NCBI GenBank assembly: GCA_018700525.1
Contig: JABITN010000117.1
Span: 1-51,654, forward strand
Direction of reading: 5' to 3'
DNA: 51,654 bases
Source of the DNA: Opitutales bacterium
GTDB taxonomy: Bacteria; Verrucomicrobiota; Verrucomicrobiia; Opitutales; Opitutaceae
Shown: positions 8,829-22,996 of the stretch, one piece after another
Layout: each line of letters starts with the position of its first letter
How positions within the stretch are numbered: the stretch's first letter is position 1
Made by a program: the position numbers and the translations under genes
The notes under the pieces: generated by a model
Told to the model about the DNA's origin: nothing
Database searches by the model: none
Seen by the model: only the letters and a program-made list of their open reading frames with translations

Positions 8829-9524
8829 TCAATAAATGAAATAACCGGTTGTTTGCAGACCAAATAGGATCAGGCCAGCACCGAATAATAGAATATTAGC
8901 ATTGCACGAGATACGTTCGAAATCTGGACGCTCACGCAGCCAGGTTAGTGCAATGAAAAGAAATACAAGTCCGACCACTTGACCCATTTCAACCCCGATA
9001 TTAAAGAAGATCATGTTGGCCACTAGCCCGTCACTGGAAAGTGCAAGATCCTGCAATTTGGTCGACAACCCAAAGCCGTGGACTAGGCCAAAACCGAATA
9101 CGGCCAGTTTTGGATCGAGACAACGAATTGAGCCCAGGTTTTCGAGAGCCTTGTAGCAAATTGAAAGCCCAATAATTGCATCGATAACGTACGGACTGAT
9201 GTGAATGTGCGCTAACACTCCGACTAGCAACGTGATGGAATGGCCGAGTGCGAAGAGACTGACGAATTTGACCACGTCAGACAGTTTTCCCAGAAAGAAA
9301 ATGACTCCAGCCAAATAGAGTAAATGATCATAACCGGTGACCATGTGTTTGGCTCCCAGATACATAAACGGACTTGCCCATACCCCTTCGGCCCTAGCGA
9401 GAAAACCCTGGTCTCTTTCTGCTACTCCGTGCGCGAAAGCCTGATCGGCAAGTATCAGACCTAGGATCGACAGTAGTAACCACCGGCAGTCCATTAACAA
9501 GAGGCCACGCTTATTTTTCGACAT
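8829..9524 (-). CDS. HupE/UreJ-family membrane protein with predicted N-terminal His
   Basis: I start at the ATG at 9522-9524 (MSKNKRGLLLMDCRW), giving 231 residues; a longer frame would run deep into the upstream gene, while this start overlaps it by only 14 bases, as in coupled genes. A signal peptide ends AFA at residue 31, so the mature protein would begin H32-G-V-A. Six or so membrane helices follow, with family motifs GAKHMVTGYDHLLYLAG, FALGHSITLL and LVHGFGLS carrying conserved His and Asp. HupE/UreJ relatives move nickel or cobalt or serve hydrogenase and urease maturation; no hydrogenase or urease gene is here, so the metal is open. Operon partners are the DUF6644-like proteins and a DUF6152 protein. 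Confidence 0.8.
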   Translation of the reverse strand: MSKNKRGLLLMDCRWLLLSILGLILADQAFAHGVAERDQGFLARAEGVWASPFMYLGAKHMVTGYDHLLYLAGVIFFLGKLSDVVKFVSLFALGHSITLLVGVLAHIHISPYVIDAIIGLSICYKALENLGSIRCLDPKLAVFGFGLVHGFGLSTKLQDLALSSDGLVANMIFFNIGVEMGQVVGLVFLFIALTWLRERPDFERISCNANILLFGAGLILFGLQTTGYFIY

Positions 9525-9993
9525 AGGGTATGATGCGTCCCAGTACGATGACGCAGGTCCATAGAGTGAGCGAAAGGGCCGCAACATAACGAGCCCCGCC
9601 AGACAGGTCTTTTCCCTCAAGCCCACGCAGGACTTGGGGGCGCAGTCGCCACGTATAGTAGAGAACATTCAGCCCGGCGACCAGGATCAGGATCATTTTG
9701 ATGCGAAAGGCAATATTGGGCAAATAACGATCAGGATCTCCGATGATGAATACAATTCCAGTGATCAAGTTGATTGCGAAGCCAACCGCCGCCGAAACCA
9801 TAAATGTTTCGATGCGGATAAGAGGCACCTCGCGCGCCACGCCCAATGCTCGAAGATCAAAGATTATTACGGAACCCAGCAGGAGGCACAGCCCGAAGAA
9901 ATGAAATATTTCCAACGTAGGCCACAGCCAGGCCTCTGACATGATGTACTTGTTGAGAGCGGTGCTGTTCAGGAATTCTATAAGCGTTTCCAT
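9511..9993 (-). CDS. DUF6644-like four-helix membrane protein (copy 2)
   Basis: The start is placed at the ATG at 9991-9993 (METLIEFLNST), which has an AAGGA Shine-Dalgarno-like stretch nine bases upstream; a frame nine codons longer would overlap the previous gene. The 160-residue product has four to five membrane helices (LEIFHFFGLCLLLGSVIIFD, MVSAAVGFAINLITGIVFII, IKMILILVAGLNVLYYTWRL and a last one ending VLGRIIPYVEK). The EIFHFFGLCLLLG segment with His matches the equivalent SLHALGMAVLVG segment of the upstream gene, so the two are divergent tandem copies. The family is annotated as DUF6644; its role is unknown. Confidence 0.7.
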   Translation of the reverse strand: METLIEFLNSTALNKYIMSEAWLWPTLEIFHFFGLCLLLGSVIIFDLRALGVAREVPLIRIETFMVSAAVGFAINLITGIVFIIGDPDRYLPNIAFRIKMILILVAGLNVLYYTWRLRPQVLRGLEGKDLSGGARYVAALSLTLWTCVIVLGRIIPYVEK

Positions 9994-10003
9994 TTGTTTG
10001 TCC

Positions 10004-10462
10004 TTATGAGAAATAGCCAATCAGACGACCCGCGACCAGCGCCACCGCCCAAGCCAATATGGATCCCCCCGCAATACCTCGGTGAGTCGTGGACACCTCT
10101 CCATTTCCACGCACGCAAATTTTAACCAGCCACCAAGTGAGAGCCAAACCAATGAATACTCCGATTAGTTTGATGTGGAAGGCCGTGTTAAAAAACAGGG
10201 TCGAAGCGCTACCTGTAAACAAAGCCGCTCCGGAAAACAGATTAACTACGAATCCTCCAATTGCCACGCTCCAGTAAGGTCCCAGCACGGTTACCGGAAT
10301 CGCTTTACCGAGACCCAAAACTCTCATCGCGAGTAACAGAGAGACACCAACCAGCACAGCCATACCTAAGGCATGCAGAGACAATACTATTGGGTAGCCC
10401 CACTCGGAGCTCGAGACGAGCATGCCGAGCTTAGAGTCCTCAATCCACCACAGTGTTTCCAT
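10004..10462 (-). CDS. DUF6644-like four-helix membrane protein (copy 1)
   Basis: The 152-residue product begins METLWWIEDSKLGMLVSSSE and has four membrane helices, the first with SLHALGMAVLVGVSLLLAMR and the last WAVALVAGRLIGYF. It shares length, helix order, a His in helix 1, an Arg at the end of helix 1 and a Gly-Arg-x-I-x-Y end with the next gene, so the pair probably arose by duplication and may form a heteromeric membrane complex. It follows the DUF6152 gene after 69 bases that contain a stable hairpin. The function of DUF6644 is unknown; no catalytic motif is visible. Paired membrane His residues beside a secreted His-rich protein suggest metal or heme handling, which is inference only. 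Confidence 0.7.
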   Translation of the reverse strand: METLWWIEDSKLGMLVSSSEWGYPIVLSLHALGMAVLVGVSLLLAMRVLGLGKAIPVTVLGPYWSVAIGGFVVNLFSGAALFTGSASTLFFNTAFHIKLIGVFIGLALTWWLVKICVRGNGEVSTTHRGIAGGSILAWAVALVAGRLIGYFS

Positions 10463-10492
10463 TACGAACTTTAATTATAACTTAGTAATTAG

Positions 10493-10522
10493 TTTTAGTA
10501 CCCCTAGATGGGGTAACTAAAA
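10493..10522 (-). promoter_or_regulatory. Intercistronic hairpin inside the DUF6152 operon
   Basis: TTTTAGTACCCC (10493-10504) and GGGGTAACTAAAA (10510-10522) form a 12-bp stem with one bulged A and a 5-base loop, between the DUF6152 stop and the next start. No U-run follows on the coding strand, so it looks more like an attenuator or mRNA-stability/processing hairpin than a full terminator. It could set a high ratio of secreted DUF6152 protein to the membrane proteins. Confidence 0.6.
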
Positions 10523-10531
10523 GCGCGTAGT

Positions 10532-11734
10532 TTACTGCTGCGTATCGTCCATCAGCTCTTCACACTCGTAGGCGATGAACTTGTCGGTAGTATATAAAGA
10601 CGAGTTCGAGCCCGAGTATGGTTTAGCTAAGTAAACGGGGTCTATTACCGTATATTCGCGGGTCAACTCATTGCCATCCTCACTCATTGTGAAACGTTCA
10701 GTGATTTCCATCTGATCACCGTGTCGTACGGCACTTGCGGATCGTCCACCAGGAGCTTGAAGAAAACCAGGTTTAAAACCTTTGGTATGGACGACCAAGG
10801 TGTCGTCTTCCCATTCCCCAACAGAGTAACCAGCAACACTAGGTTCAATCTCATCTGGAAAATCTCCGACCAAATTGATGATCCGCACTAAGTCCATAAA
10901 CCCATAAGAAAGGACGATGGCAGATCCAGTTTGTTCGATCTTGTTCATCATCTGGTCAAAGGCATAATCAAATATGATATTGGTGGGCTCGCATTTGAAC
11001 CGAGGATTCTGATCGCGTGTAAAATTCCCTGTTTCATCTTGGCCGATTTGCGTAAGCGCATATTGGGCGGGACGTGGTCTGTTGCCTCCGCCACCTCTTT
11101 GACGTCCGCCACCCGGACCAGCTGGTCTTGCCCCGCCCGCTGGCCCGGGCATAGCAATTTTCGAGGCGGAACCGTCAGCAGCGAGATTGAGTCCTTCAGG
11201 TGGACCCTCCGATCTTGGACGAGGACCTTGCGGTGGTGGACCGTCTCTTACGGGTTCGGACCAGTTTCCTGCTAGATTGGGCGTTCCGTCTTCACGTTTG
11301 AGCTCGCGTTCTCCAGCGACAATACTTCCTGAGTTGTCCAAAGCATCGTAACGTGCGACAACCGTTCCATCTTCAAAAGTAATCGTTTCGGTATAGCAAG
11401 TCTTAGGGTCTCGGCGGTCGGGTGAGCCAAAAACTTTGATTGTAGTGCCAATCTCAAACATGTCTGTCGTCCAGCCTTTGCGTTTGAGCAAGCTGCCCGA
11501 GCGCAATTCGCAGCGCCATTGTTCTTCCTCGCCTTGTTCGTTGGTGACTTTGAAGTAGACGTAAGCATGGGGGTTAACAAATCGAACCCGGTTCACTACA
11601 CCCGTAACCGTCAATACCTGCTCAAGGTCGAACTGCCCTGTGACACCGTGGTGGGCCAACGAAGTTGAAGGTAGAAGGCCTATACTGCATAGGGATGCTA
11701 TCGCGGCCGCCATAAATGTTTGTTTGATTGTCAT
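10532..11734 (-). CDS. Secreted DUF6152-family protein with Gly/Pro-rich linker (copy 1)
   Basis: The 400-residue product has a signal peptide (1-27, ending SLA) and a mature N-terminus H28-H29-G. An OB-like DUF6152 domain follows (TVTGVVNRVRFVNPHAYVYF, then EEQWRCELRSGSLLKRKGW and GSPDRRDPKTCY), a low-complexity Gly/Pro/Arg segment (about residues 160-225), and a C-terminal beta-rich domain with YALTQIGQDETGNFT, SVAGYSVGEWEDDTLVVHTK and ITERFTMSEDGNELTREYTV. Two single Cys (in WRCEL and KTCY) may form a disulfide. The HH and the NPHA His (H56) are shared with the paralogue at 46393-47520. It heads the membrane operon, and its upstream region matches the one before dctP. The molecular role is unknown; metal binding through the terminal His is inferred. 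Confidence 0.85.
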   Translation of the reverse strand: MTIKQTFMAAAIASLCSIGLLPSTSLAHHGVTGQFDLEQVLTVTGVVNRVRFVNPHAYVYFKVTNEQGEEEQWRCELRSGSLLKRKGWTTDMFEIGTTIKVFGSPDRRDPKTCYTETITFEDGTVVARYDALDNSGSIVAGERELKREDGTPNLAGNWSEPVRDGPPPQGPRPRSEGPPEGLNLAADGSASKIAMPGPAGGARPAGPGGGRQRGGGGNRPRPAQYALTQIGQDETGNFTRDQNPRFKCEPTNIIFDYAFDQMMNKIEQTGSAIVLSYGFMDLVRIINLVGDFPDEIEPSVAGYSVGEWEDDTLVVHTKGFKPGFLQAPGGRSASAVRHGDQMEITERFTMSEDGNELTREYTVIDPVYLAKPYSGSNSSLYTTDKFIAYECEELMDDTQQ

Positions 11735-12255: not shown

Positions 12256-13968
12256 ATGCAAAAACATCATCTTGATTGGGCACTGATCTGCTCGTTCGCG
12301 CTCATTCTAGTTGCTTGTGGAGGCAGCGCTAAGAATGGAAATAAGGATACCGTTGCCGCTAAAGGTTCGCGGCCCAACATTCTGCTCATAGTGGCGGATG
12401 ATTTAGGATACACCGATTTGGGAGTATATGGCGGGGAGATCGACACGCCCCATTTGGATCAGTTGGCCAAAGCTGGCCTGATACTGACTGACTTTCACAA
12501 TCAAGCCGTTTGCGGTCCTACAAGAGCGTCGATTTTGGCTGGAACAGACAATCGAAACGCCGGCGGAGCGATGCATCAAACCCCGAATCAGATAGGAGTA
12601 CCTGGATACGAGTCTCACTTGAGCCGCGATGTGGTGGCGTTTCCTGATCTGCTGCGTCAAAGCGATTATAATACGTACTTTCTGGGCAAGTGGCATTTGG
12701 GCAACGAGCCCGATCTCTTGCCGCCTGCCCGAGGCTTTGATCGCTCGTATGCCCTCATGGAAGGCTTTGCCAGTCACTTTCACGATAAGGGTCGCTTTCG
12801 GCCTGACCAATTGGGCACCTATTACGAGGACGGAACGTTTGTTGAGAACCTGCCGGAGGACTTTTTCTCTACCGATTTTTATACCGACCAACTGATTGAT
12901 TATATCGACGCTGACGTGGGAAGTGGAAAGCCTTGGTTTGCCTATTTAGGGTACACCGCGCCCCATTGGCCTCTGCAAGCGCCCGATGAATACATTGACA
13001 AATACAAAGGGGTTTATGACGAAGGCTACGAGGTTCTTAGAGCGGAAAGAATTGCCCGCGGTAAAGCGCTCGGCGCGATTCCTCAAGAAGCCGTAATGTA
13101 TCCACGCCTTCAAACTATCCCGGCGTGGAATGATCTCTCCCCGGGAGAAAAAACGGTAGCTTCAAGAGAAATGGAAATCTATGCGGCGATGGTAGATGGC
13201 ATCGACCAAAATTTGGGGCGACTCTTGAACCACCTGAAAGCAATTGATGAATACGATAATACGCTGATCATCTTCATATCAGACAATGGTGCCGAAGGGG
13301 TAGACCGAGGAGGACCAGCGAGCGGCTGGGATAATCGGCTGGAAAATTTGGGGCGCATAAACTCCTATGTTTATTATGGCGATAAGTGGGCTCAAGCGGG
13401 CGTAGGCGTTGGACGTTACCACAAATCGTTAAGCTCTGAAGGCGGATCGCTCGGTCCCGCGTTTTTCTACCACAAGGATATGAGTAAGAAGGGTCAGATG
13501 AACGATGAGTTTATGTCCGTAATCGATTTTTACCCAACGTTTGTGGAACTCGCTGGAGCCGACCATCTTAAAACAGGGAGCAACGGTACGCCTATGCATG
13601 AGGTGCAAGGGCAATCCCTATTGCCCGTATTGTTTGGCGACGAAAATTCGGTCCGAACTGAAGACTTCACCTACGGCTGGGAGGTCTTCGGTCATCGAGC
13701 CCTTCGCAAAGGGGATTACAAATTGCTTTGGTTAACTTCAAAGCCTTCAGAGAGAGGGCAGGTAGTGCCGGAACTGGCTGACCAATGGGGTCTCTATGAC
13801 CTTTCCGTCGACCCTGGCGAAACGAATGATCTTTCCGAATCTAAACCCGAAATTAGAGCGGACCTTCTGAAAGAATGGGATGCGTATATGGAGAAAAATG
13901 GGATTGTATTACCGGTTGCAGGTCCCCCTCGAGGGGGACCTCTGGGGGCTAGGAGAAACCGACCCTAG
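12256..13968 (+). CDS. Lipoprotein type I sulfatase (arylsulfatase)
   Basis: The 570-residue product carries a lipoprotein signal (LILVAC, lipid Cys at 21) with Gly-Gly-Ser after the Cys, so it is likely membrane-anchored, unlike the other sulfatases here. The catalytic domain opens NILLIVADDLGYTDLGVYGG (metal D48-D49), has the canonical C86-G-P-T-R90 motif, GKWHLGNEPDLLPPARGFDR, LGYTAPHWPLQAPDEY, IFISDNGAEG and a long C-terminal part ending LYDLSVDPGETNDLSESKPE. The PPARGFDRSYAL block and the insertion between LQAPDEY and the second metal site (IFISDNGAEG) are typical of large arylsulfatases near the Pseudomonas AtsA/PAS group. A short tail (AGPPRGGPLGARRNRP) is Gly/Pro/Arg-rich. It stands alone between divergent and convergent neighbours. 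Confidence 0.9.
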   Translation: MQKHHLDWALICSFALILVACGGSAKNGNKDTVAAKGSRPNILLIVADDLGYTDLGVYGGEIDTPHLDQLAKAGLILTDFHNQAVCGPTRASILAGTDNRNAGGAMHQTPNQIGVPGYESHLSRDVVAFPDLLRQSDYNTYFLGKWHLGNEPDLLPPARGFDRSYALMEGFASHFHDKGRFRPDQLGTYYEDGTFVENLPEDFFSTDFYTDQLIDYIDADVGSGKPWFAYLGYTAPHWPLQAPDEYIDKYKGVYDEGYEVLRAERIARGKALGAIPQEAVMYPRLQTIPAWNDLSPGEKTVASREMEIYAAMVDGIDQNLGRLLNHLKAIDEYDNTLIIFISDNGAEGVDRGGPASGWDNRLENLGRINSYVYYGDKWAQAGVGVGRYHKSLSSEGGSLGPAFFYHKDMSKKGQMNDEFMSVIDFYPTFVELAGADHLKTGSNGTPMHEVQGQSLLPVLFGDENSVRTEDFTYGWEVFGHRALRKGDYKLLWLTSKPSERGQVVPELADQWGLYDLSVDPGETNDLSESKPEIRADLLKEWDAYMEKNGIVLPVAGPPRGGPLGARRNRP

Positions 13969-14067: not shown

Positions 14068-14706
14068 TTAAAGAATTTCGCACACCTTATCAAAGCCCAG
14101 GCGCGGGCCGCGCGGGTGTAATCCTTCGGTATCCCCATATCCAATACAGCAGAGAAAGTTCGATTTATAACGTCCATCCGCAAAGAACGCTTCGTCGATG
14201 ACTTCGTTGTGAAATCCGGAAATGCCATTGACGTCCAGACCAATAGCGCGGGCAGCGAGCATGAAGTAAGCGCCCTGAAGCGAGCTGTTGCGGAGGGCAG
14301 TCGATTCGGCTTTGGCTGGATTTTCCCGGTACAAGCCACTGACGTCCTTTACCGGAAAGAGCTCGGGTAAGTATTCATAAAATTGAGTATCATATGAAAT
14401 GATCGCAACTATGGGAGACGCTTTGATCTTGGGGATATTTCCTTCGTGCAAAGCAGGAATCGTCCGATTCTTGGCTTCTTCGCTTTTCAGGAATAAATAA
14501 CGCGCCGGGTTGGAGTTTTGCGAAGTGGGTCCCCACTTCATAACTTCAAACAATTCCTGAAGAACAGAGTCCTCAACCACCCGGTCTTGCCATTTTTTAA
14601 AAGAGCGGGCCTCTCGGAATATCAGGTCTAGACCATTTTTATCCAGGTTTTGGATGCGATTTCTAAGCTTTTCTATAGCTACGCCGGGTGTTGTGCGTTC
14701 GGACAT
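14068..14706 (-). CDS. RutE/HadB-type nitroreductase-family flavoenzyme
   Basis: The 212-residue product matches the RutE/HadB branch of the FMN nitroreductases, the group that includes malonic semialdehyde reductase of the Rut uracil pathway. Family blocks in order are LQELFEVMKWGPTSQNSNPA, RYLFLKSEEAKNR, VAIISYDTQFYEYLPELFP, ALRNSSLQGAYFMLAARAIG, LDVNGISGFHNEVIDEAFF and NFLCCIGYGDTEGLHPRGPR. It is cytosolic and is the last gene of the catabolic operon. No rutABCDF gene is nearby, so a role in pyrimidine use is unlikely here. Next to malonyl-CoA decarboxylase, reduction of a semialdehyde or of an activated double bond from ring cleavage is a reasonable hypothesis. Confidence 0.85.
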   Translation of the reverse strand: MSERTTPGVAIEKLRNRIQNLDKNGLDLIFREARSFKKWQDRVVEDSVLQELFEVMKWGPTSQNSNPARYLFLKSEEAKNRTIPALHEGNIPKIKASPIVAIISYDTQFYEYLPELFPVKDVSGLYRENPAKAESTALRNSSLQGAYFMLAARAIGLDVNGISGFHNEVIDEAFFADGRYKSNFLCCIGYGDTEGLHPRGPRLGFDKVCEIL

Positions 14707-14714
14707 GGTTCTAA

Positions 14715-14798
14715 CTAGTCAATTTGTTCGCCGACATTCGGACTAATCGAAAGGCCGGCACCTTGGATCTCTACTTCGATTTCTTCACGATTTACCAC
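14715..14798 (-). pseudogene. Short frame resembling a flavoprotein-hydroxylase fragment
   Basis: Between the HMGL-like gene and the nitroreductase, a 27-codon frame (possible GTG start at 14796-14798) contains EIQGAGLSISPNVGEQID and stops nine bases before the nitroreductase ATG. GAGLSISPN is the pattern seen in FAD-dependent aromatic hydroxylases of the salicylate-hydroxylase type (GAGIxLxPN). It may be the last trace of a hydroxylase that once fed the dioxygenase, or a small leader peptide coupling translation. Support is one motif only. Confidence 0.3.
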
Positions 14799-14817
14799 TT
14801 AAACCGAAGTCTTGCAG

Positions 14818-16044
14818 CTAGGCCAGCCCTCCCTGGGTGACATTAGCTAATATCGTTCTGAATTCGTCGTCTGTGAGAATTCTCTTTTTAGCGATTCCCT
14901 CACTCTTTACCGCTGCTAGCAACTCTGGCATCTGTTCATCGCTAACACCGCTTATACCGAGTTCGTTGAGTTTGTAAATGATGGATGCCTTCCCGCTTTT
15001 CTTGCCTAATACGATGTCGCCTGTACGTCCGGTCAGCGACGGATGTGTGCCGAACATTGCAAGCGGCTTCTCGACGACCAAGTTTACACCGATGCCGGAT
15101 TCGCGTGTAAAGTTTCTTTCTCCAAGAATGGGCTTATTTAGAGCGTACGGAATGCCTGTAATGTCTGCTAGCAATGCTCCCAGTTCAGGCAGTTTTGCGA
15201 GTTCGTATTTTGATTCGAAGCCGTAAAGTAACTCGAGGCAAAGAATCAACTCTTCGAGCGCTGCATTGCCGGTTCGTTCGCCGAGCCCTCCAACGCAACT
15301 ATGGACACACGATGCTCCAACCGTGACTGCCGCCAGTTCGGTGGCAACACCTGTTCCAAAATCGTTGTGCGTGTGAATTTCGACTGGAAGGCTAGTCAGA
15401 TCAGCGACTTTTCGCACCAAATACTTGATCGCTTCGGGAGTCGCGCAGCCCATCGTGTCAACGACACCGATCGAATCAGGCTCTGACTCTTTCATAATGC
15501 CGGTGAGCAAATTGGTCAGGTCGTCTTCGCGTGCCCGTGTTGTGTCATAAGGAAAGAAGACCGCGTGGAGTCCTTTGCTCTTGGCGTAGTTGATTACATC
15601 TGCGCTCTTTTTAAGCACGTCTTCCCATGTCCAATTGAATTGGTACTTGAGCTTAGGATACCCAATCGGCACTTCGATTATCACACCGTCGGCTCCGCAT
15701 TCGACCGCTTTGTCAATGTCCGCTTTCATGGCGCGAGCGAACGTGTAAATTTTGGCGTTAAGACCGAGTGCCGAGATTTTCTTAATCGCTTCAAAGTCTT
15801 GTGGTGAAACCGCCGGCATTCCTGCCTCGATCCTATCGATACCGACCTCGTCCAACTTTTTCGCAATCGCAACTTTTTCTTCAACAGAAAAGACAAGGCC
15901 AGGGGTTTGCTCTCCATCTCGAAGCGTCGCATCATGGATTTCGACCTTTTCTGGCAAGTTTAGCTCGCCGGTAACTTGAGGATGAAAATTGTATGGGCTA
16001 ACCCAATACTGATCTTCTTTGTAGTGTTTGCCGTTTTCAATCAT
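14818..16044 (-). CDS. HMGL-like (DRE-TIM) carbon-carbon lyase/synthase
   Basis: The 408-residue product belongs to the DRE-TIM metallolyase superfamily (isopropylmalate/homocitrate synthase, HMG-CoA lyase-like). Motifs are IHDATLRDGEQTPGLVFSVE (catalytic Arg and metal Asp), RIEAGMPAVSPQDFEAIKKI, VEIHTHNDFGTG (metal His pair) and VHSCVGGLGERTGNAALEEL. The C-terminal part (GERNFTRESGIGVNLV, then LGKKSGKASI) matches the post-barrel subdomain of homocitrate-synthase-like enzymes; the LeuA allosteric domain is absent, so leucine biosynthesis is unlikely. It could join acetyl-CoA to a 2-oxo acid or run in the cleaving direction. Lying directly after malonyl-CoA decarboxylase, which makes acetyl-CoA, condensation is attractive. 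The exact substrate cannot be read from sequence. Confidence 0.82.
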   Translation of the reverse strand: MIENGKHYKEDQYWVSPYNFHPQVTGELNLPEKVEIHDATLRDGEQTPGLVFSVEEKVAIAKKLDEVGIDRIEAGMPAVSPQDFEAIKKISALGLNAKIYTFARAMKADIDKAVECGADGVIIEVPIGYPKLKYQFNWTWEDVLKKSADVINYAKSKGLHAVFFPYDTTRAREDDLTNLLTGIMKESEPDSIGVVDTMGCATPEAIKYLVRKVADLTSLPVEIHTHNDFGTGVATELAAVTVGASCVHSCVGGLGERTGNAALEELILCLELLYGFESKYELAKLPELGALLADITGIPYALNKPILGERNFTRESGIGVNLVVEKPLAMFGTHPSLTGRTGDIVLGKKSGKASIIYKLNELGISGVSDEQMPELLAAVKSEGIAKKRILTDDEFRTILANVTQGGLA

Positions 16045-16105
16045 GTGTTTATTTTTATATTTCTAAAATGTAGTTTGTCGATAGTTCTTTCCGAATACGA
16101 AGCCT

Positions 16106-17518
16106 TTACTTTAACAATCCCGACACGGTAGACGACACGGTGATTTTACCGCTTCCGGAATACTTCTCATGATGTCGCTCTATGCGATCGAGACGGTAGT
16201 GGTAGTTGATCATTAAACCACACGATTCACGCAGCCCTTTTCCGGAAGTGTCGGCCATCCAGTTGAGTTGTTGTATACTCGCTCCGTTGCTCAGATGAAA
16301 ATGCGCGACTGGGTCAAGGGCATGCGCGCTGTCTCGGCCTTTAGCCTTTAGTAAATAGATAGCCGCGAATCGCTTCAGTACAGTTTGCAAGGCTTCCGCT
16401 AACGGTTCGTCCTTGGCCCACTTGATTGAGCTCAGTTGCTCACTCAAAATTCCCAGTGTAGGAATCTTCCCGATTACGGCTTTGAGCTTTTTCTGTTCCG
16501 CTCCCTTAAAATCCAATTCATTTTCCTTCAAGGATTGCTTTAACCAACCCATGAATCCGGGAATGGGTGACAATGTTGAAAATTGCTTTAAATTGGGCTG
16601 CTCGCGACGCAAACGATCTACGACTTGTTTGATAAGAAAGTTGCCAAATTTGATTCCTGCTAAACCGGGTTGCGTGTTGGAAATGGAATAGAATATCGCT
16701 GTATCCGCTTCTCCAGGATCGAGCACGGGAGCCTTCACATCCAGAAGAACTTGAATCTGGCTGGCCAGTCCGTTGACGAGGGCCACTTCAACAAAGATAA
16801 GCGGCTCATTCGGCATGCTGGGGTGAAAAAAAGCATAACACCGCCTGTCTGCATCGAGACGGTTTTTCAAATCATGCCAACTGCGCACGCGGTGTACCGC
16901 TTCGTAAGCGCCTAGCTTTTCCAAGAGGGAGGCAGGTGCGTCCCAGTTAATACTGCGCAGATCCAGGAAGCCGATATCAAACCAGGCAATCAGTAAATTC
17001 TTCAGATCGCGTTCCAAAAAACGAAGCTCTGGATGGGCTTTTTTGAGCTCGAGCAGTTCATTTCGCAACTCTACTAAAAATTGCGGACCAGATTGCAAGG
17101 TACTGAATTTGCGCAGCAGAGCGACACGCGATGGTTCGAGGGCGCGACGCAATGTGCGTTGATTGGCTTCTAGTTCCTCTTCCCCTGAAGCATGTTTAAG
17201 CAAATTAAACGCCTCATTGAACTTCGCGTTTTCGACGCCAAAATTTCGAGCTAGAATTTGCAAGAATACCAACCGCTCTTTTGCAGAAAAATCGAGATAC
17301 GATTGTGCTAGTTGAGCGGCCCGCGCTCGCGCCGACACTTCTCCTCCCTGCTCAGCCAGGCAGGCTTCAATCTGCGTTTGCAAGGCATTGGGTCGGCTAT
17401 CCTTATTGGAGCCATTTCGCCCGGACAATCGTGCGATCTCACGCCACATGCGCCCCAAGCTATGAAGCGAATTATTAAAAATCCCCTCTTGATTGGGTCG
17501 ACTAGCTTTCTTGGCCAT
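16106..17518 (-). CDS. Malonyl-CoA decarboxylase
   Basis: The 470-residue product fits malonyl-CoA decarboxylase: an N-terminal helical oligomerisation domain (about 40-200, with ARAAQLAQSYLDFSAKERLV) and a C-terminal GNAT-fold catalytic domain. Diagnostic blocks are EAVHRVRSWHDLKNRLDADR, RCYAFFHPSMPNEPLIFVEV, AIFYSISNTQPGLAGIKFGN, FSTLSPIPGFMGWLKQSL (with the Ser of the active site) and HFHLSNGASIQQLNWMAD (with the active-site His), then MINYHYRLDRIERHHEKY. It converts malonyl-CoA to acetyl-CoA and CO2. In this operon it probably consumes malonyl-CoA arising from the imported substrate. The start gives MAKKASRPNQEG with no signal peptide. Confidence 0.93.
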   Translation of the reverse strand: MAKKASRPNQEGIFNNSLHSLGRMWREIARLSGRNGSNKDSRPNALQTQIEACLAEQGGEVSARARAAQLAQSYLDFSAKERLVFLQILARNFGVENAKFNEAFNLLKHASGEEELEANQRTLRRALEPSRVALLRKFSTLQSGPQFLVELRNELLELKKAHPELRFLERDLKNLLIAWFDIGFLDLRSINWDAPASLLEKLGAYEAVHRVRSWHDLKNRLDADRRCYAFFHPSMPNEPLIFVEVALVNGLASQIQVLLDVKAPVLDPGEADTAIFYSISNTQPGLAGIKFGNFLIKQVVDRLRREQPNLKQFSTLSPIPGFMGWLKQSLKENELDFKGAEQKKLKAVIGKIPTLGILSEQLSSIKWAKDEPLAEALQTVLKRFAAIYLLKAKGRDSAHALDPVAHFHLSNGASIQQLNWMADTSGKGLRESCGLMINYHYRLDRIERHHEKYSGSGKITVSSTVSGLLK

Positions 17519-17648
17519 AAGTCCTAACCAGCTATTTTATTACCGAAAGAAAATGCGGCAGACCTGTCCTGCCAAATTTCGAGCTGATTGCATCGCAGTT
17601 TACTATTTAGCTGCTAGACAGCAGAGGTTGTGTATGCATGTGAGCGTT

Positions 17649-18041
17649 TCAAATTACGGATCGTTTGCCATTCGAATAAGTGACATTAATTGTGATGGAT
17701 CCCTCGTTCATCATCCAAGGCCTAACCCGGAATGTGCGAGCCCCGCTTCGGTGCATCGGATCGTTCTCCGCAATGTTCTTGGCCTCTTCTAGGGAATCTG
17801 CGCGAAGGATGACCATACCTTCGCCTTCCCATTCCTGCTCTTCGTCATCGGCGAAGGGTCCAGCGGCAAACATCGCTCCGTTAGCCTCCAACTCCAATTG
17901 GTATTTGAGGTGTTCCTGCAAATTCTCTATCACCGCTTCCATTCCACCGGCAGGCTTTGTGAGGACTACATAGAATTTCTTAGCTAACAGGCCTTTTTCT
18001 TTGACGTGCTCGTGATGCGCTTCCCAAGAGGATTGTGCCAT
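17649..18041 (-). CDS. YciI-family (dimeric alpha/beta barrel) protein
   Basis: The 130-residue product has a YCII-related domain from about residue 22 (KKFYVVLTKPAGGMEAVIEN), with ANGAMFAAGPFADDEEQEWEG, GMVILRADSLEEAKNIAENDP and MHRSGARTFRVRPWMMNEG. The AGP-F-x-D and ENDPMH(R)SG blocks are characteristic. Relatives occur as accessory or isomerase/dehalogenase-like enzymes in aromatic degradation clusters, and the fold is shared with muconolactone isomerase. It sits 18 bases after the dioxygenase gene, so it may act on the ring-cleavage product. That step is inferred. Confidence 0.82.
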   Translation of the reverse strand: MAQSSWEAHHEHVKEKGLLAKKFYVVLTKPAGGMEAVIENLQEHLKYQLELEANGAMFAAGPFADDEEQEWEGEGMVILRADSLEEAKNIAENDPMHRSGARTFRVRPWMMNEGSITINVTYSNGKRSVI

Positions 18042-18059
18042 GTTTTTAATTTTTTGAGG

Positions 18060-18917
18060 CTAGAGAGTTTCGAGTTCGAAATCGAATTCGACCCGGTGAA
18101 AAGGGGAGGCAACGCCATACTTTTCGGCTTCTTCTTCAGAGGTGACTAGATTGTAAGGAACCGTCAGCGATTGTCGGACACCAAAAACGGAATCCTCCTC
18201 GATGTATTCGTCCCCTTCATCGAATACTTCGGTTATCAAGTTGCGGTGTCCGTCGGCGCTCACCTTGTAATGCAAATGAGACGGGCGCCAAGCGTGCCGT
18301 CCCTGCAGATCGAGCATTCTGCCTACCGGGCCGTCGGTCGGAACTTTATAGCTGACCGGCTTGATGGTGGTGAATTGGTAATAGCCGTCTTTGTTGGTTC
18401 GCATTCGGAAACGCAGGTTGTTTTCCGGTTGATCGGGGTCCTGGTTTTCATACAAGCCGTTGGCGGCGGTCTGCCAAAGATCGATTATCGCGCCTTCGAT
18501 TGGATCGCCACCGAGGGTGCGGACGGTGCCTGAAACCACCGTCGGTTCTCCCTCGCTGTCTCCGATCAAATTTGCGCCGATTTCAACCATCTTCGAACCC
18601 TCTATGTAAAAGGGTCCCAACACGCTTGCTTCTGTGCCCCCATCGGGATTGCTGTTGATAATATCTACTAGGGATGAAATCCCCAAGGTGTCAGAAGTGA
18701 GAACAAACTCATTGCGGGTTGGCCCTGTGATCTGTCCTGTGTCGTACAAATACTCAATGGCCGCTTCCCATTCCGCCTGGGTCAATCGGACATCTTTGAC
18801 GAAGGCATGAAGGTGCCGAATGAGACTCGACATCACCTCTTTTGCGCGAGGGTCTTTAGTTCCCTTAATAGCTTCAATGACTGCTTCGGTAATATTGCCT
18901 TCTGTAAGATTCTTCAT
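18060..18917 (-). CDS. Hydroxyquinol/catechol-type intradiol ring-cleavage dioxygenase
   Basis: The 285-residue product has the N-terminal helical dimerisation domain of catechol-type enzymes (about 5-95), the linker ASVLGPFYIEGSKM, and the C-terminal beta-sandwich. Non-heme Fe(III) ligands can be placed as Y156 (GLYENQD), Y190 (VSYKVPTDGPVG), H214 and H216 (RPSHLHYKV). A single-gene enzyme with catalytic and helical domains rules out the two-subunit protocatechuate type. The form with DGPVGRMLDLQGRHAWRPSH fits hydroxyquinol 1,2-dioxygenases, which open 1,2,4-trihydroxybenzene to maleylacetate. No maleylacetate reductase gene is nearby. It lies 31 bases after dctM in the same operon. Confidence 0.88.
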   Translation of the reverse strand: MKNLTEGNITEAVIEAIKGTKDPRAKEVMSSLIRHLHAFVKDVRLTQAEWEAAIEYLYDTGQITGPTRNEFVLTSDTLGISSLVDIINSNPDGGTEASVLGPFYIEGSKMVEIGANLIGDSEGEPTVVSGTVRTLGGDPIEGAIIDLWQTAANGLYENQDPDQPENNLRFRMRTNKDGYYQFTTIKPVSYKVPTDGPVGRMLDLQGRHAWRPSHLHYKVSADGHRNLITEVFDEGDEYIEEDSVFGVRQSLTVPYNLVTSEEEAEKYGVASPFHRVEFDFELETL

Positions 18918-18948
18918 GGTTTGTTATAATATTTCGTATTCAAAGCCC

Positions 18949-20268
18949 TCAAATAAAGACCAGTGAAAGGGAAGGGAAAAGGATGATCAAAATGAGTACC
19001 GCCAACATGATTAGCGCAAAGGGGAACGCCCCTTTAAAAATGTCAGACAGCGAAATATCTGGATCATTCAATGAACTATGGATCACGAAACAGGATACGC
19101 CCAAGGGTGGGGTGAGTAGTCCGATTTCGGCTCCAATCACGGTTACAATTCCGAACCAAACTAAGTGGATGCCCATGGGTTCTAAAATTGGCAGAAAGAG
19201 AGGTACGATGATGAGAATGATAGACACTGTATCCAAAATCGTCCCCATAAGTATCAGGACGACGACATAGATGACCATGATCGCAGCAAACCCCAATGCT
19301 TGAGCTTGAATCCACTCGCTAAAGATCGTAGGTAAACCCGCTATCCCCAGCATCCGACTGTACATAGAGGCGGCAATCAAGAGGAGTAGGATGGAAGCGG
19401 TAATGTGACCGGTTTCAATGAGCACTTTCCAAAGCCCTTTGAGATTCAACCGTTTTTTGAATACGGCCACGATCAGAGCACCCATTGCTCCAGCCGCTCC
19501 CGCTTCGGTCGCGGTAAACCACCCCGTGTAAATTCCGCCTAACACGATACCAACCAATAGCAGTATGGGCAGCACCATCCGCAGGATTTGGAGCCCGTTC
19601 AAAGAAGGCTTATCCACCACCTCGATTGGCTCGGCGGTTTCATCCATGACCAATTTCGGAAAAAACGTGGCCATTGTGAGAATTGCCACCCCGAATGCAA
19701 CAGAGAGCAGAATGCCCGGGATTACGCCCGCAATGAACATGTGCCCGACTGATTGCTCTGTTATGATGGCATAAAGAATGAGCATTACACTCGGGGGTAT
19801 GAGCATGCCAAGTACTGAGCTGCCGGCCACAACGCCCACCGTAAATCGAGGGTTGTATCCGAAGCGTTTCATTTCAGGAATGGACACTTTGGTGAACACC
19901 GAGGCCGAGGCGATCGAAGACCCGGTGATGGATGCGAAGATGGCATTGGCCACCACGGTAGCGATTCCCAAGCCGCCTTTGAGTCTGCGGAAAATAAAGT
20001 TGGAGACATCATAAATGTCTCTCCCTACACCTGCTTCGCTAATAAGGAGTCCCATCAAGGCAAAGAGTGGCACTACTGCAAAGGTGGGTTCCGCAATCGT
20101 GTCAGCCGCGGCTAAAGAAAGCAGATAAATGGGTACTTCGATATCACCTCGAAGCAGCCAAACTCCAAGAAAGGAAACCAAGCCCAAGGCCACTGGGATA
20201 TACAAGCCCGAGTAAATCAGGACTAGGATGAGCCCCACTGAGATCAAACCAACTTCGATTTCCGTCAT
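18949..20268 (-). CDS. dctM: TRAP transporter large permease (DctM family)
   Basis: The 439-residue product is a polytopic membrane protein of about 12 helices and normal length for the TRAP large subunit. Characteristic stretches are FAVVPLFALMGLLISEAGVG, TVVANAIFASITGSSIASAS, VVAGSSVLGMLIPPSVMLIL (the GxLIPPS motif) and IGAEIGLLTPPLGVSCFVIH (the second LTPP motif). It moves the bound substrate across the inner membrane with sodium. It follows dctQ after four bases, so the two are translationally close. Confidence 0.93.
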   Translation of the reverse strand: MTEIEVGLISVGLILVLIYSGLYIPVALGLVSFLGVWLLRGDIEVPIYLLSLAAADTIAEPTFAVVPLFALMGLLISEAGVGRDIYDVSNFIFRRLKGGLGIATVVANAIFASITGSSIASASVFTKVSIPEMKRFGYNPRFTVGVVAGSSVLGMLIPPSVMLILYAIITEQSVGHMFIAGVIPGILLSVAFGVAILTMATFFPKLVMDETAEPIEVVDKPSLNGLQILRMVLPILLLVGIVLGGIYTGWFTATEAGAAGAMGALIVAVFKKRLNLKGLWKVLIETGHITASILLLLIAASMYSRMLGIAGLPTIFSEWIQAQALGFAAIMVIYVVVLILMGTILDTVSIILIIVPLFLPILEPMGIHLVWFGIVTVIGAEIGLLTPPLGVSCFVIHSSLNDPDISLSDIFKGAFPFALIMLAVLILIILFPSLSLVFI

Positions 20269-20272
20269 TTCA

Positions 20273-20830
20273 CTAATCTATTGCTGATGCATCCGTTGGT
20301 TCGATTTTCGTTCGGGTCAAATTTCGTCTAACAAAGACAAGAAACTGCAAGAGCGTGACAGCACACCCGATTACAATGATCAATTTGATCGGCCAAACAG
20401 GAGCTGTGAAAAGTCCTTCGACCCCAATATAAAAATCCGATTGATACGATTCGATAAATAGCGGAATGCTTCCATAGAGTATTAGCCCCATGAACACTGC
20501 TCCCAATAGATCGAATAAAGCCCCGTGAAAGCGGCCGAAATTGGGCCATCGCCTCCCGATGAAATTGAATAGCCCATCCGAGCGAGGTAAACGCCCTTTC
20601 CGAGTAGCATCGCCCAACTGTAAGAAAACAATGCCTACGATGGACAACTCGACGATTTCGTTGACCCCATCGATGGGTGAGTGGAAGAGTTTTCGGCCAA
20701 AAGCGTCTGCGTTGATCAGAATCGTGAGAACGAAAATCCAGACCGACCCGATACTATTCAAATTGGATAAAACAATTTCCAGTATCCGGTCAAACTTACC
20801 GTTGGATCGCGTCGGACTTACATTTTCCAT
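20273..20830 (-). CDS. dctQ: TRAP transporter small permease (DctQ family)
   Basis: The 185-residue product has four membrane helices: VWIFVLTILINADAFGRKLF, DGVNEIVELSIVGIVFLQLG, GALFDLLGAVFMGLILYGSI and KLIIVIGCAVTLLQFLVFV. The layout, size and position between dctP and dctM fit the TRAP small subunit, and the motif NEIVELSIVGIVFLQLGDATRKG matches the family's E-x(5)-V-F-x-x-x-A-x-x-x-x-x-H-like helix 2 region. It bridges the periplasmic receptor and the large permease. Confidence 0.88.
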   Translation of the reverse strand: MENVSPTRSNGKFDRILEIVLSNLNSIGSVWIFVLTILINADAFGRKLFHSPIDGVNEIVELSIVGIVFLQLGDATRKGRLPRSDGLFNFIGRRWPNFGRFHGALFDLLGAVFMGLILYGSIPLFIESYQSDFYIGVEGLFTAPVWPIKLIIVIGCAVTLLQFLVFVRRNLTRTKIEPTDASAID

Positions 20831-20836
20831 AAATAT

Positions 20837-21919
20837 CTACTCCCGGTCCCAGTGTCTGGAAATATTCTGGCCATTGGTTCGCATTGTATCCATATAAAAC
20901 TTCAAGATTTCATGACCAGGGAGCCCTTTTTCTTCTAATCCTTCGGCCCATTCTTTGGCGATGTTTGGCATGTTTTTAGCCCATTGGTCACGTTCGCTGG
21001 CCGACAGCGTGGCGATGGTGCCCCCGTTTTCTTGGAACAATCTGAGGCTTTCAGCTCCTTTGGAAACAGCCAGTGCTGCAACATGGTCGCGATAATCTAC
21101 GGCAGTTTCAGCAAGGATTTCTTGGACTTCGGCGGGCAGTTTATCCCACGCCCGCTTATTGACGGTTATGGCTTTGGAGTTCACTGTCCCCATGTCTGCT
21201 TGAAGCATGTAGGGAGCTACTTCGTGCATCTTAAAGGAAACGGCGGCTTCGGGCCAAATCATGGCGGCATCCACGACTCCTGTATTGATATTTTGGAAAT
21301 ACGTAACCAAACTTCCCGCGACGCCAGCGGATCCCAATCCTTGCAGATACCTCAGGTTCGTGCCTGCCCCATTGATCTTCAATCCGTTTAAGTCGGAAAG
21401 CGCTTCGATCGGTTCTTTTGAGAATAACTGGTAGCTGTCAAGCACCACCATGTTGGTCAGGTACACTTGATTGTACTTCTCCCAAGCTTCTCTCATTTCA
21501 GGAAATTTCTCGGCAATCTCATCGACGGTCCTGGCCACCAGTTCGGGGTCAGTCGTCACGAAGGGCGTGACGTACGCGATGGCTTGAATGGGGACTTTGT
21601 CTTGGTGGAAGACCGTGGTCACGATGCCAATATCCCCCAAGCCTTTTTGAAGGCCGGGAAGCACATTTCGCGTTTTGACAATCTGCCCGCCCCAAGCCTG
21701 GTTCCATCTGATTTTGAAATTTCCTTTGGCAGTCAATCGCTTTTCGACTTCAGGAATATAGTATTCGACAAACTCTTTTACCCACAGCGATTGGGTCGGA
21801 TACCCATCCACGACCGTTAGTCGGATCGTTTCTTGAGTGGATCCAGGTCCGGAACATCCAATCATGGATACCAGTGCGAGTAAGACGAATGTTGGGATAA
21901 CTGATTTTTTTGGTAGCAA
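20837..21919 (-). CDS. dctP: TRAP transporter substrate-binding lipoprotein (DctP family)
   Basis: The 360-residue product has a lipoprotein signal (ALVSMIGC, lipid Cys at 22) and a DctP solute-binding domain. Recognisable blocks are FKIRWNQAWGGQIVKTRNVL, LQKGLGDIGIVTTVFHQDKV, SDLNGLKINGAGTNLRYLQ and TYFQNINTGVVDAAMIWPEA, the last two forming the carboxylate-binding region with its conserved Arg. The ligand is most likely an organic acid; with a ring-cleavage dioxygenase in the operon an aromatic carboxylate is plausible. Lipid anchoring is less common for DctP than a free periplasmic form. Its promoter region carries the element shared with the DUF6152 operon. Confidence 0.92.
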   Translation of the reverse strand: MLPKKSVIPTFVLLALVSMIGCSGPGSTQETIRLTVVDGYPTQSLWVKEFVEYYIPEVEKRLTAKGNFKIRWNQAWGGQIVKTRNVLPGLQKGLGDIGIVTTVFHQDKVPIQAIAYVTPFVTTDPELVARTVDEIAEKFPEMREAWEKYNQVYLTNMVVLDSYQLFSKEPIEALSDLNGLKINGAGTNLRYLQGLGSAGVAGSLVTYFQNINTGVVDAAMIWPEAAVSFKMHEVAPYMLQADMGTVNSKAITVNKRAWDKLPAEVQEILAETAVDYRDHVAALAVSKGAESLRLFQENGGTIATLSASERDQWAKNMPNIAKEWAEGLEEKGLPGHEILKFYMDTMRTNGQNISRHWDRE

Positions 21920-22168: not shown

Positions 22169-22996
22169 TTAGTCGGCGAGCGAAGGTAGCAGGTTTTCTC
22201 TTAAATCAGTCAGGGCCTGAATAATCAGCTTTTTGGATTTAACGAATCGAATGGTAGGAACGGGTACGGAGACCGCAAAAACTCGGCCCAGAGGATCACG
22301 AAAAGCGGTTCCAATGGCACAAATACCCTGAGTATGCTCTTCGTTGTCGATGGCAATCTGAGTCTTCCTGGTTTTCGCTAATTGCGTTATCAGGTCGGAT
22401 ACATTGGTAATGGTATTAGCGGTTTTCTTTGCTAGACTGCCGGCCAAAAGCCGCCTTATTTCATCTTCTTCCAGCAACGCGAGCGCAGCCTTTCCATGAG
22501 CTGAGCTAAACATATGAAAACTTTTACCTACAGCTGAAACGGCGCTCAAACGGTGATTTGCTGTAATCTGATCAATGAAGACCATTTTGTCTCCGCGCTG
22601 TATGGATAGGTCCACGGTCTCGCCCGTGCGCTGCGCCAGTGTTTCAAGGTGTGGTCTCACATGGGCCGCGAAATCAAAATCGGTATTTGCTGCGAGGCGG
22701 AGAATGGAAGGCCCCAGCTTGACCCGAGCGTTGGGAGTCGCCCTGATCAATAAATTCTCTTCGGTCAAAGCATTTACGATGCGTTGAATCGTGGAACGGG
22801 GCAGATCAACCCGATTGGCGATTTGCCCCAGGCTCAATCCGTCCTTTTCATTTTCCAGCGAGCGCAGAATGGAAGCCGCACGGGCGATTACTTGAATTCC
22901 GCTGCCACTTTTCCGGCCCGCTTTGGGGCCTTTTGCTGCGTGCGCGTCCAGCTTCAATGCAGCGGTCGCTTTTCCGGTCGAAGCGGTTTTAGTCAT
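22169..22996 (-). CDS. IclR-family transcriptional regulator of the catabolic operon
   Basis: The 275-residue product has a low-complexity, lysine/alanine-rich N-terminus (1-35), an IclR winged helix-turn-helix (about 36-95: IQVIARAASILRSLENEKDG, then LSLGQIANRVDLPRSTIQRI) and the IclR effector domain (about 100-270: FAAHVRPHLETLAQRTGETV, then MFSSAHGKAALALLEEDEIR and GICAIGTAFRDPLGRVFAVS). IclR proteins often control aromatic-acid catabolism and bind the substrate or an intermediate. It is encoded directly upstream of dctP on the same strand with the shared element between them. The long basic N-terminal tail is unusual for the family. Confidence 0.92.
   Translation of the reverse strand: MTKTASTGKATAALKLDAHAAKGPKAGRKSGSGIQVIARAASILRSLENEKDGLSLGQIANRVDLPRSTIQRIVNALTEENLLIRATPNARVKLGPSILRLAANTDFDFAAHVRPHLETLAQRTGETVDLSIQRGDKMVFIDQITANHRLSAVSAVGKSFHMFSSAHGKAALALLEEDEIRRLLAGSLAKKTANTITNVSDLITQLAKTRKTQIAIDNEEHTQGICAIGTAFRDPLGRVFAVSVPVPTIRFVKSKKLIIQALTDLRENLLPSLAD

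Follow-up and report, generated by a model that had tools for sequence, protein, structure and literature searches.

A recurring operon that pairs a hydroxyquinol-type dioxygenase with an altered HMGL-like enzyme suggests a possible phenol pathway without maleylacetate reductase

Contig JABITN010000117.1 of an Opitutales bacterium (assembly GCA_018700525.1; 4.8 Mb, 96.47% complete) was analyzed over a stretch of 51,654 nucleotides, called here the window, which carries a run of nine minus-strand genes extending from 22996 down to 14068. In that order, they encode an IclR-family regulator, the DctP, DctQ and DctM components of a TRAP transporter, a hydroxyquinol-type intradiol dioxygenase (DIOX), a YciI-family protein, malonyl-CoA decarboxylase (MCD), an HMGL-like enzyme (HMGL) and a flavin nitroreductase (NTR). 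The initial annotation had described positions 14068-21919 as an unusual catabolic operon comprising DIOX, YciI, MCD, HMGL and NTR and missing maleylacetate reductase (MAR). All five genes are intact open frames at that place on the minus strand, profile searches agree on their families, and the run contains no MAR. Here, we propose that the operon serves to degrade a hydroxyquinol-type phenol and that, in place of the MAR route, its ring-fission product is cleaved by HMGL, possibly in a CoA-dependent step; judged from sequence, this proposal stands slightly short of an even chance.

The regulator gene (22169..22996; PF01614/PF09339), which likely exerts local control, scores below cut-off for its best NCBIfam matches BhcR (128.2 bits) and PcaR/PcaU (97.5 bits) and is separated from dctP by 249 bases. 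From DctP to NTR the intergenic spacing is 4-130 bases, which fits a single transcript starting at DctP; scans of the window for promoter-like sites (8 versus 9.4, sd 2.8, in shuffles) and terminator-like sites (14 versus 10.8, sd 3.5) gave no signal. The TRAP transporter, complete at 18949-21919 and not discussed in the initial annotation, consists of the solute-binding lipoprotein DctP (20837..21919, starting at 21919 or a later codon; PF03480), the small permease DctQ (20273..20830; PF04290) and the large permease DctM (18949..20268; PF06808, with TIGR00786 above cut-off). Its ligand could not be read from the solved DctP relatives, which are too distant. An arginine in TRAP proteins of this kind usually binds a carboxylate; since the first Asn of the DctP motif GLKINGAGTNLRYL replaces that Arg of the two nearest solved proteins, DctP may bind something other than a simple carboxylate.

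DIOX (18060..18917; PF00775 and PF04444) finds its best solved relatives in a 6-chlorohydroxyquinol dioxygenase and PnpC (both E 8e-78). Its top five solved matches, all at 5e-64 or better, comprise two hydroxyquinol dioxygenases, one 6-chlorohydroxyquinol dioxygenase, PnpC and one unnamed intradiol dioxygenase, while chlorocatechol and catechol dioxygenases match at 4e-39 or weaker. We take two Tyr and two His to be the iron ligands and eleven positions of 1tmx to form the hydroxyquinol pocket, the residues at those 1tmx numbers having been checked in the sequence. The ligands (Y156, Y190, H214 and H216) are kept in 50 of 50 sequences, and nine of the eleven pocket positions are identical in the window; the remaining two are F108, replaced by Leu in 50/50, and I199, replaced by Val in 46/50. 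Additionally, a tree of 28 sequences groups all 17 operon DIOX proteins in a single clade (support 1.0) that excludes the dioxygenase of locus L110, which is linked to a MAR. Given the conserved ligands and pocket, the F108L exchange and the separate clade, DIOX probably acts on a hydroxyquinol, whose substituent may be a different one. A precedent is 1,2,3,5-tetrahydroxybenzene, described in excerpts of PMC12388069 as an intermediate of gallate breakdown in Aspergillus, for which another ring-cleaving enzyme, a DUF3500 protein, is proposed there.

The YciI-family protein (17649..18041; PF03795) is possibly TftG-like, TftG being its best solved, weakly matching relative. NTR (14068..14706), of the RutE/HadB type, passes the RutE equivalog PRK05365 (“malonic semialdehyde reductase”; 255.9 bits versus a cut-off of 152), which does not prove its substrate; no other Rut family was found among the nine genes with Pfam and NCBIfam, and the HadB part of its label comes from the initial, sequence-only reading. 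The nitroreductase-like TcpB has a quinone reductase role. According to excerpts of PMC3975901, TftG produces hydroxybenzoquinone just ahead of its reduction and ring cleavage, and tcpB sits with a 6-chlorohydroxyquinol dioxygenase gene, its product being suggested to be a flavin reductase. With the TftG match, weak as it is, and this nitroreductase-like gene beside a dioxygenase, YciI, NTR and DIOX resemble a known module. The earlier suggestion that the flavoenzyme reduces the ring-cleavage product is possible, but a quinone reductase working next to a YciI protein of TftG type is no worse an explanation and may be a better one.

HMGL (14818..16044; PF00682 and PF22617) appears to be a DRE-TIM metallolyase of a separate subfamily and a probable C-C cleaving enzyme. 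The best fold matches of its predicted model (mean pLDDT 84.2, with block means of 52-67 at residues 301-350) are homocitrate synthases (6ktq, E 2e-27), and PF22617, which comes after the HMGL barrel in these synthases, is kept (29.1 bits versus 27). For every family shown, HMGL stays under the NCBIfam cut-off: 352.8 versus 484.75 bits for TIGR02090, 360.3 versus 517 for PRK00915.1-2 and 295.2 versus 462.9 for NifV. We built a FastTree phylogeny of 31 sequences, namely 17 subfamily members, four solved homocitrate/isopropylmalate synthases, nine synthase-like paralogues and, as root, one shorter HMGL paralogue. Among the nine paralogues, seven reach an isopropylmalate or citramalate synthase cut-off, L142 lies below its best one and L147 was unscanned. 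The 17 subfamily members form a single clade (support 1.0) outside the synthase clades; a biosynthetic placement was thus not found among the clades tested, NifV and AksA having been left out of the tree.

The active site of HMGL combines a retained metal site with replaced catalytic residues. All 81 near relatives keep Arg42, Asp43, His224, His226 and Asn260 (counting the first Met) unchanged. Gly319 occupies the position of a His present in 13/13 synthase comparators, both in the 17 members in the tree and in all 81 near relatives, and a Tyr of 11/13 comparators has become Met330 (15 members) or Ala (two); both synthase residues are replaced in 81/81 aligned near relatives. An earlier His of 11/13 comparators is Arg314 in 17/17, and a Glu of 11/13 is Tyr166 (15) or Phe (two). 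In the synthases, the His and Tyr of the post-barrel domain that are replaced here serve to deprotonate acetyl-CoA; with both gone, the most direct inference is that HMGL catalyzes a cleavage not begun by acetyl-CoA deprotonation. Thus, where the initial annotation had HMGL join or split carbon units, joining with acetyl-CoA is disfavored and splitting is likelier. We rejected a biosynthetic synthase because of the low family scores, the separate clade and the replaced catalytic pair.

To what extent this gene set recurs was seen by scanning 84,980 genomes with the HMGL protein; out of 331 relatives, the 80 most similar to HMGL supplied the loci, so that all counts describe the near subfamily. 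DIOX lies within the same fetched locus in 49 of the 80, three of them verrucomicrobial (L011, L012 and L014), at less than 1.1 kb from HMGL in 35/49. DIOX-type genes occur in 18/21 HMGL genomes and are single-copy in 17 of these 18; with 49 of the 80 loci shared all the same, the grouping is far beyond chance. Among those 31 of the 49 loci that span at least 17 kb (shorter contigs hide neighbors, and many neighbor genes were named by eye), a GntR regulator is found in 30, DctP and NTR in 29 each, YciI in 28, an OsmC-family gene in 24, MCD in 18 and MAR in none. HMGL is the best conserved protein, with a median identity to non-Verrucomicrobiota copies of 69.5%, followed by DctM (58.2), DctP (52.1), DIOX (47.6), NTR (46.6), YciI (43.1) and MCD (39.2), a rank favored by the choice of loci through HMGL similarity.

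The hosts of these 49 loci are mostly Alpha- and Gammaproteobacteria, mainly Rhodobacteraceae, Rhizobiales-type bacteria and Granulosicoccaceae. The nearest named HMGL relatives are Opitutaceae and Opitutales metagenome-assembled genomes (MAGs), and within the phylum of the window the gene is rare, occurring in 6/115 near relatives and 2/387 evenly drawn genomes (the source genome counted in both); one of the six bearers belongs to another family (92% identity). Acquisition of the operon from Proteobacteria is likely. A plasmid-borne trait was considered and rejected, since none of 72,556 plasmid records matched HMGL at E 1e-60.

Several loci vary this arrangement. The OsmC-family gene, found in 29 of the 49 loci (e.g., L081 5518-5991) and sitting between NTR and DctP in L046, L081 and L111, is absent from the window operon. 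In G007, a single-contig Opitutaceae genome (L109 6549-17538), the operon is split, with HMGL about 15 kb from DIOX and genes for metallo-hydrolase-like, cyclase, transporter-like, SDR-like and FAH proteins inserted between YciI and NTR. L087, titled as a Klebsiella pneumoniae MAG, carries HMGL, a DUF6152 gene and MCD as in environmental gammaproteobacterial loci and is probably mislabelled.

MCD (16106..17518) is intact in the window, with PF05292 and PF17408 both above gathering score (347.4 and 68.9 bits). The gene is present in 18/21 HMGL-bearing genomes. In a sample of 248 genomes from the family of G474 (Frigidibacter), it occurs in 13 of 14 HMGL bearers and in 82 of the 234 others (Fisher p 2e-5), at most 10 kb from HMGL in 9/14; among the 115 verrucomicrobial relatives the figures are 3/6 with HMGL (broken in G002) and 2/109 without. 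It also lies near HMGL in gammaproteobacterial loci without DIOX (L037, L055 and L072). Of seven verrucomicrobial operons, those of the window and G003 have an intact MCD, G002 and G010 retain only remnants, and G103, L014 and G007 lack the gene. The G002 copy (L012/L126 2347-3016) is internally deleted and contains stops, and that of G010 (L125 9412-9513) is a 34-residue stub, both in otherwise complete operons. MCD is thus linked to HMGL but dispensable, and its membership in the set, as first described, holds for the window but is not strict, with two of seven verrucomicrobial copies intact. Excerpts of PMC10673129 report that in Yoonia (Roseobacteraceae) malonyl-CoA breakdown genes are enriched in marine lineages, and MAR and hydroxyquinol dioxygenase in lake lineages. 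This pattern is compatible with an MCD-linked route in the sea that exists alongside the canonical pathway, and does not test it.

The search for MAR used the L110 protein from a Sulfitobacter genome (G477), whose gene lies beside its own hydroxyquinol-type dioxygenase gene and which matches solved maleylacetate reductases at 6e-118 and 1e-113. A MAR hidden elsewhere in the source genome was rejected: the genome, at its stated completeness, holds only four iron-dependent alcohol dehydrogenase genes, 22-27% identical to authentic MAR (22-30% over best stretches), so that no close, potentially co-regulated MAR was found. Of 29 HMGL-bearing genomes searched, six contain a close relative: G477, the source of the query, and, at 46-52%, G469, G471, G472, G482 and G483 (interrupted by a stop in G471, G472 and G482). 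None of the six has the operon at its HMGL locus. No close MAR was found in the six verrucomicrobial genomes searched, in 8/8 non-verrucomicrobial genomes with a contiguous or split operon (G474, G475, G476, G478, G479, G480, G481 and G484) or in any of the 49 loci in which DIOX accompanies HMGL. As a rule, then, operon genomes lack MAR, but there are exceptions, and genomes without the operon can lack it too.

Starting from what the sequences hold directly, that is, the gene set, its conservation, the missing MAR and the altered HMGL active site, we infer a substrate, an order of steps and an HMGL reaction as follows. DctPQM would take up a hydroxyquinol-type phenol, probably with a further ring substituent, or its quinone; NTR, as a quinone reductase, would hold the phenol reduced; a TftG-like YciI would act on the ring substituent; and DIOX would open the ring. 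The HMGL metalloenzyme would then cleave a six-carbon keto-diacid, replacing MAR, CoA transferase and thiolase. Because the nine genes include no CoA ligase or transferase, CoA would most simply enter at the HMGL step, as it must if MCD acts on malonyl-CoA made by the pathway. A specific guess is the conversion of 2,4-dioxoadipate and CoA into malonyl-CoA and pyruvate, after which MCD would turn malonyl-CoA into acetyl-CoA. Possible sources of the 2,4-dioxoadipate are 1,2,3,5-tetrahydroxybenzene and, once its substituent has been lost, a 6-substituted hydroxyquinol. The DRE-TIM superfamily handles a stabilized pyruvate enolate, and the scheme would explain why MAR is missing and the Claisen base lost, as well as the presence of MCD and of the FAH-family proteins encoded nearby. 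Nothing on 2,4-dioxoadipate was found in the open-licence literature. A bolder proposal, less probable though not remote, is that the HMGL subfamily constitutes a new class of enzyme, namely a retro-Claisen metallolyase that depends on CoA. It would have evolved from homocitrate-synthase-type enzymes through loss of the acetyl-CoA base, would convert the ring-fission product directly into a CoA thioester (for instance, 2,4-dioxoadipate into malonyl-CoA and pyruvate) and would have spread horizontally over several phyla.

Several observations weigh against the proposed pathway. The TftG match of YciI is only weak (E 4e-4). MCD is a remnant or absent in 5/7 verrucomicrobial operons, so that malonyl-CoA need not be an obligatory product. 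In the excerpts of PMC12388069, Aspergillus growth on gallate was unimpaired after deletion of 17 putative dioxygenase genes, including a hydroxyquinol one, and tetrahydroxybenzene cleavage thus need not be carried out by hydroxyquinol-type enzymes. As to MAR, it is likewise missing, in close form, from nine of 15 HMGL genomes without the operon; it is not depleted in the 248-genome sample (3/14 HMGL bearers versus 32/234 others, p 0.43); and two genomes of that sample, G874 and G933, carry it elsewhere together with DIOX beside HMGL. For these three reasons, its absence alone is weak evidence. Finally, HMGL stands without DIOX in 3/3 Desulfobulbaceae-type genomes, and in Desulfofustis (L078) it is followed by thiolase and acetoacetate-CoA ligase genes, scored above cut-off, which points to acetoacetate.

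This Desulfofustis locus also favors the main rival, an unlikely yet serious one, in which NTR replaces MAR by reducing maleylacetate to 3-oxoadipate and HMGL, in the manner of beta-keto acid cleavage, converts this product and acetyl-CoA into succinyl-CoA and acetoacetate. Triacetate acetoacetate-lyase is a DUF849-type enzyme. Such a lyase finishes anaerobic phloroglucinol breakdown (PMC10470551), and the frequencies in the long operon loci, NTR in 29/31 and MAR in none, agree with the exchange. The link between HMGL and MCD would be left unexplained, and we know of no nitroreductase of this family that reduces maleylacetate.

Distinctly less probable is a CoA-free aldolase reaction, by which HMGL would split a hydrated ring-cleavage product to yield either glyoxylate plus acetoacetate or pyruvate plus a second acid, with MCD topping up acetyl-CoA or being unrelated. 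BhcR, the family nearest to the IclR regulator, senses glyoxylate; there are related aldolases with the DRE-TIM fold, and the HMGL matches include one of them, 4-hydroxy-2-oxovalerate aldolase; and both the lost Claisen residues and the dispensable MCD would suit it. However, none of the nine genes encodes a hydratase, and HMGL retains the post-barrel domain PF22617. We consider it improbable that a plain hydroxyquinol pathway is completed by housekeeping enzymes encoded elsewhere, with HMGL and MCD serving another purpose: 31 of the 80 HMGL loci, many of them short, lack DIOX and close MAR occurs in 6/29 HMGL genomes, but HMGL and DIOX lie within 1.1 kb in most shared loci, the source genome has no close MAR, and HMGL is retained while MCD decays. 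The condensation put forward in the initial annotation, of acetyl-CoA supplied by MCD with a pathway keto acid to give a homocitrate-like compound, accords with the homocitrate synthase fold and with acetyl-CoA as the MCD product, but has very little chance given the replaced His and Tyr (17/17), the scores under all family cut-offs shown and the lack, among the nine genes, of an enzyme to use such a product.

HMGL also occurs in other contexts. Its gammaproteobacterial neighbors include an IclR-like gene and genes for a MetE-like protein, a LigM/DesA-type O-demethylase (above the LigM cut-off in L063, which was scanned, and by sequence likeness in L072) and FAH-family proteins. Together with the Desulfobulbaceae loci, these contexts suggest that HMGL processes a product of polyphenol breakdown and do not fix its reaction. 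Among 247 genomes from the phylum of L078, four carry HMGL relatives, the two most distant (54%) with unrelated neighbors. A more distant dioxygenase (33-38% identity) in six gammaproteobacterial genomes (L101-L106) marks a further, unassigned ring-cleavage cluster; in L102 it stands beside a dienelactone-hydrolase-family protein and a D-2-hydroxyacid dehydrogenase, and L105 and L106 look similar by eye.

Next to NTR, on the plus strand, lies a sulfatase gene (12256..13968; PF00884), a possible accessory gene whose product has, by eye, a lipobox-like start. Relatives at 79-98% identity stand beside NTR in all five sister operons whose contig covers the site (L011, L012/L126, L013/L109, L124 and L125, one from another family; in G007 one small gene intervenes), and the operon substrate may be delivered as a sulfate ester. 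Several further window genes appear sulfatase-like by eye. Near HMGL (window 9511-11734) lie genes for a DUF6152 protein and for two paired small membrane proteins, one of which resembles DUF6644 without reaching its cut-off, as in Verrucomicrobiota L011, L013, L124 and L125 and in the gammaproteobacterial loci L037, L055, L063, L072, L020, L024, L029 and L087, some with one type only.

If the proposed pathway is correct, dozens of bacteria among Rhodobacteraceae, Rhizobiales, Granulosicoccaceae and some Opitutales, many of these groups best known from the sea, would share an undescribed route for phenolic carbon, and a well-studied biosynthetic enzyme family would have given rise to a catabolic, C-C cleaving branch. 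Should the HMGL subfamily also be a new class, this would be a substituted-hydroxyquinol route needing no MAR, CoA ligase, CoA transferase or thiolase. Annotation pipelines may name HMGL homocitrate or 2-isopropylmalate synthase and so mask the pathway.

As the initial annotation had held, the set matches no known pathway, none with these genes having been found in the open-licence literature; it shares parts with several. HMGL has in common with homocitrate, isopropylmalate and citramalate synthases (LEU1_arch, NifV, LeuA and CimA) the DRE-TIM barrel, the metal ligands and the post-HMGL domain, and differs from them by its own clade, the replaced His and Tyr, an N-terminal WVSPYN extension and the lack of a regulatory domain. 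Malonate utilization (Mat) operons comprise MCD, a TRAP transporter and a regulator. The operon shares all three and, unlike them, has a ring-cleaving dioxygenase and no malonyl-CoA synthetase in the run; a simple malonate operon was rejected for want of MatB there, the rest of the genome not having been searched for it. The canonical hydroxyquinol pathway, in which dioxygenase and MAR lead to 3-oxoadipate (e.g., L110), relies on the same ring-cleaving enzyme family, whereas the operon lacks MAR and its DIOX forms a clade of its own with F108L.

The had chlorohydroxyquinol pathway is of the same kind as tft and tcp, and the lyase of the anaerobic phloroglucinol cluster belongs to a different enzyme family from HMGL. 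In the tft and tcp pathways, as far as excerpts of PMC3975901 describe them, a hydroxyquinol-type dioxygenase accompanies a YciI protein (TftG) or the nitroreductase-like TcpB, as in the operon; unlike tft, tcp and had, the operon run has neither MAR nor an FAD-dependent chlorophenol monooxygenase and includes a TRAP transporter, HMGL and MCD. The Aspergillus route through 1,2,3,5-tetrahydroxybenzene (excerpts of PMC12388069) is aerobic and passes through one candidate substrate, differing in being fungal and in its DUF3500 cleaving enzyme. The phloroglucinol cluster (PMC10470551) uses no oxygenase and, like the pathway proposed here, ends in C-C cleavage of a polyphenol-derived C6 keto acid.

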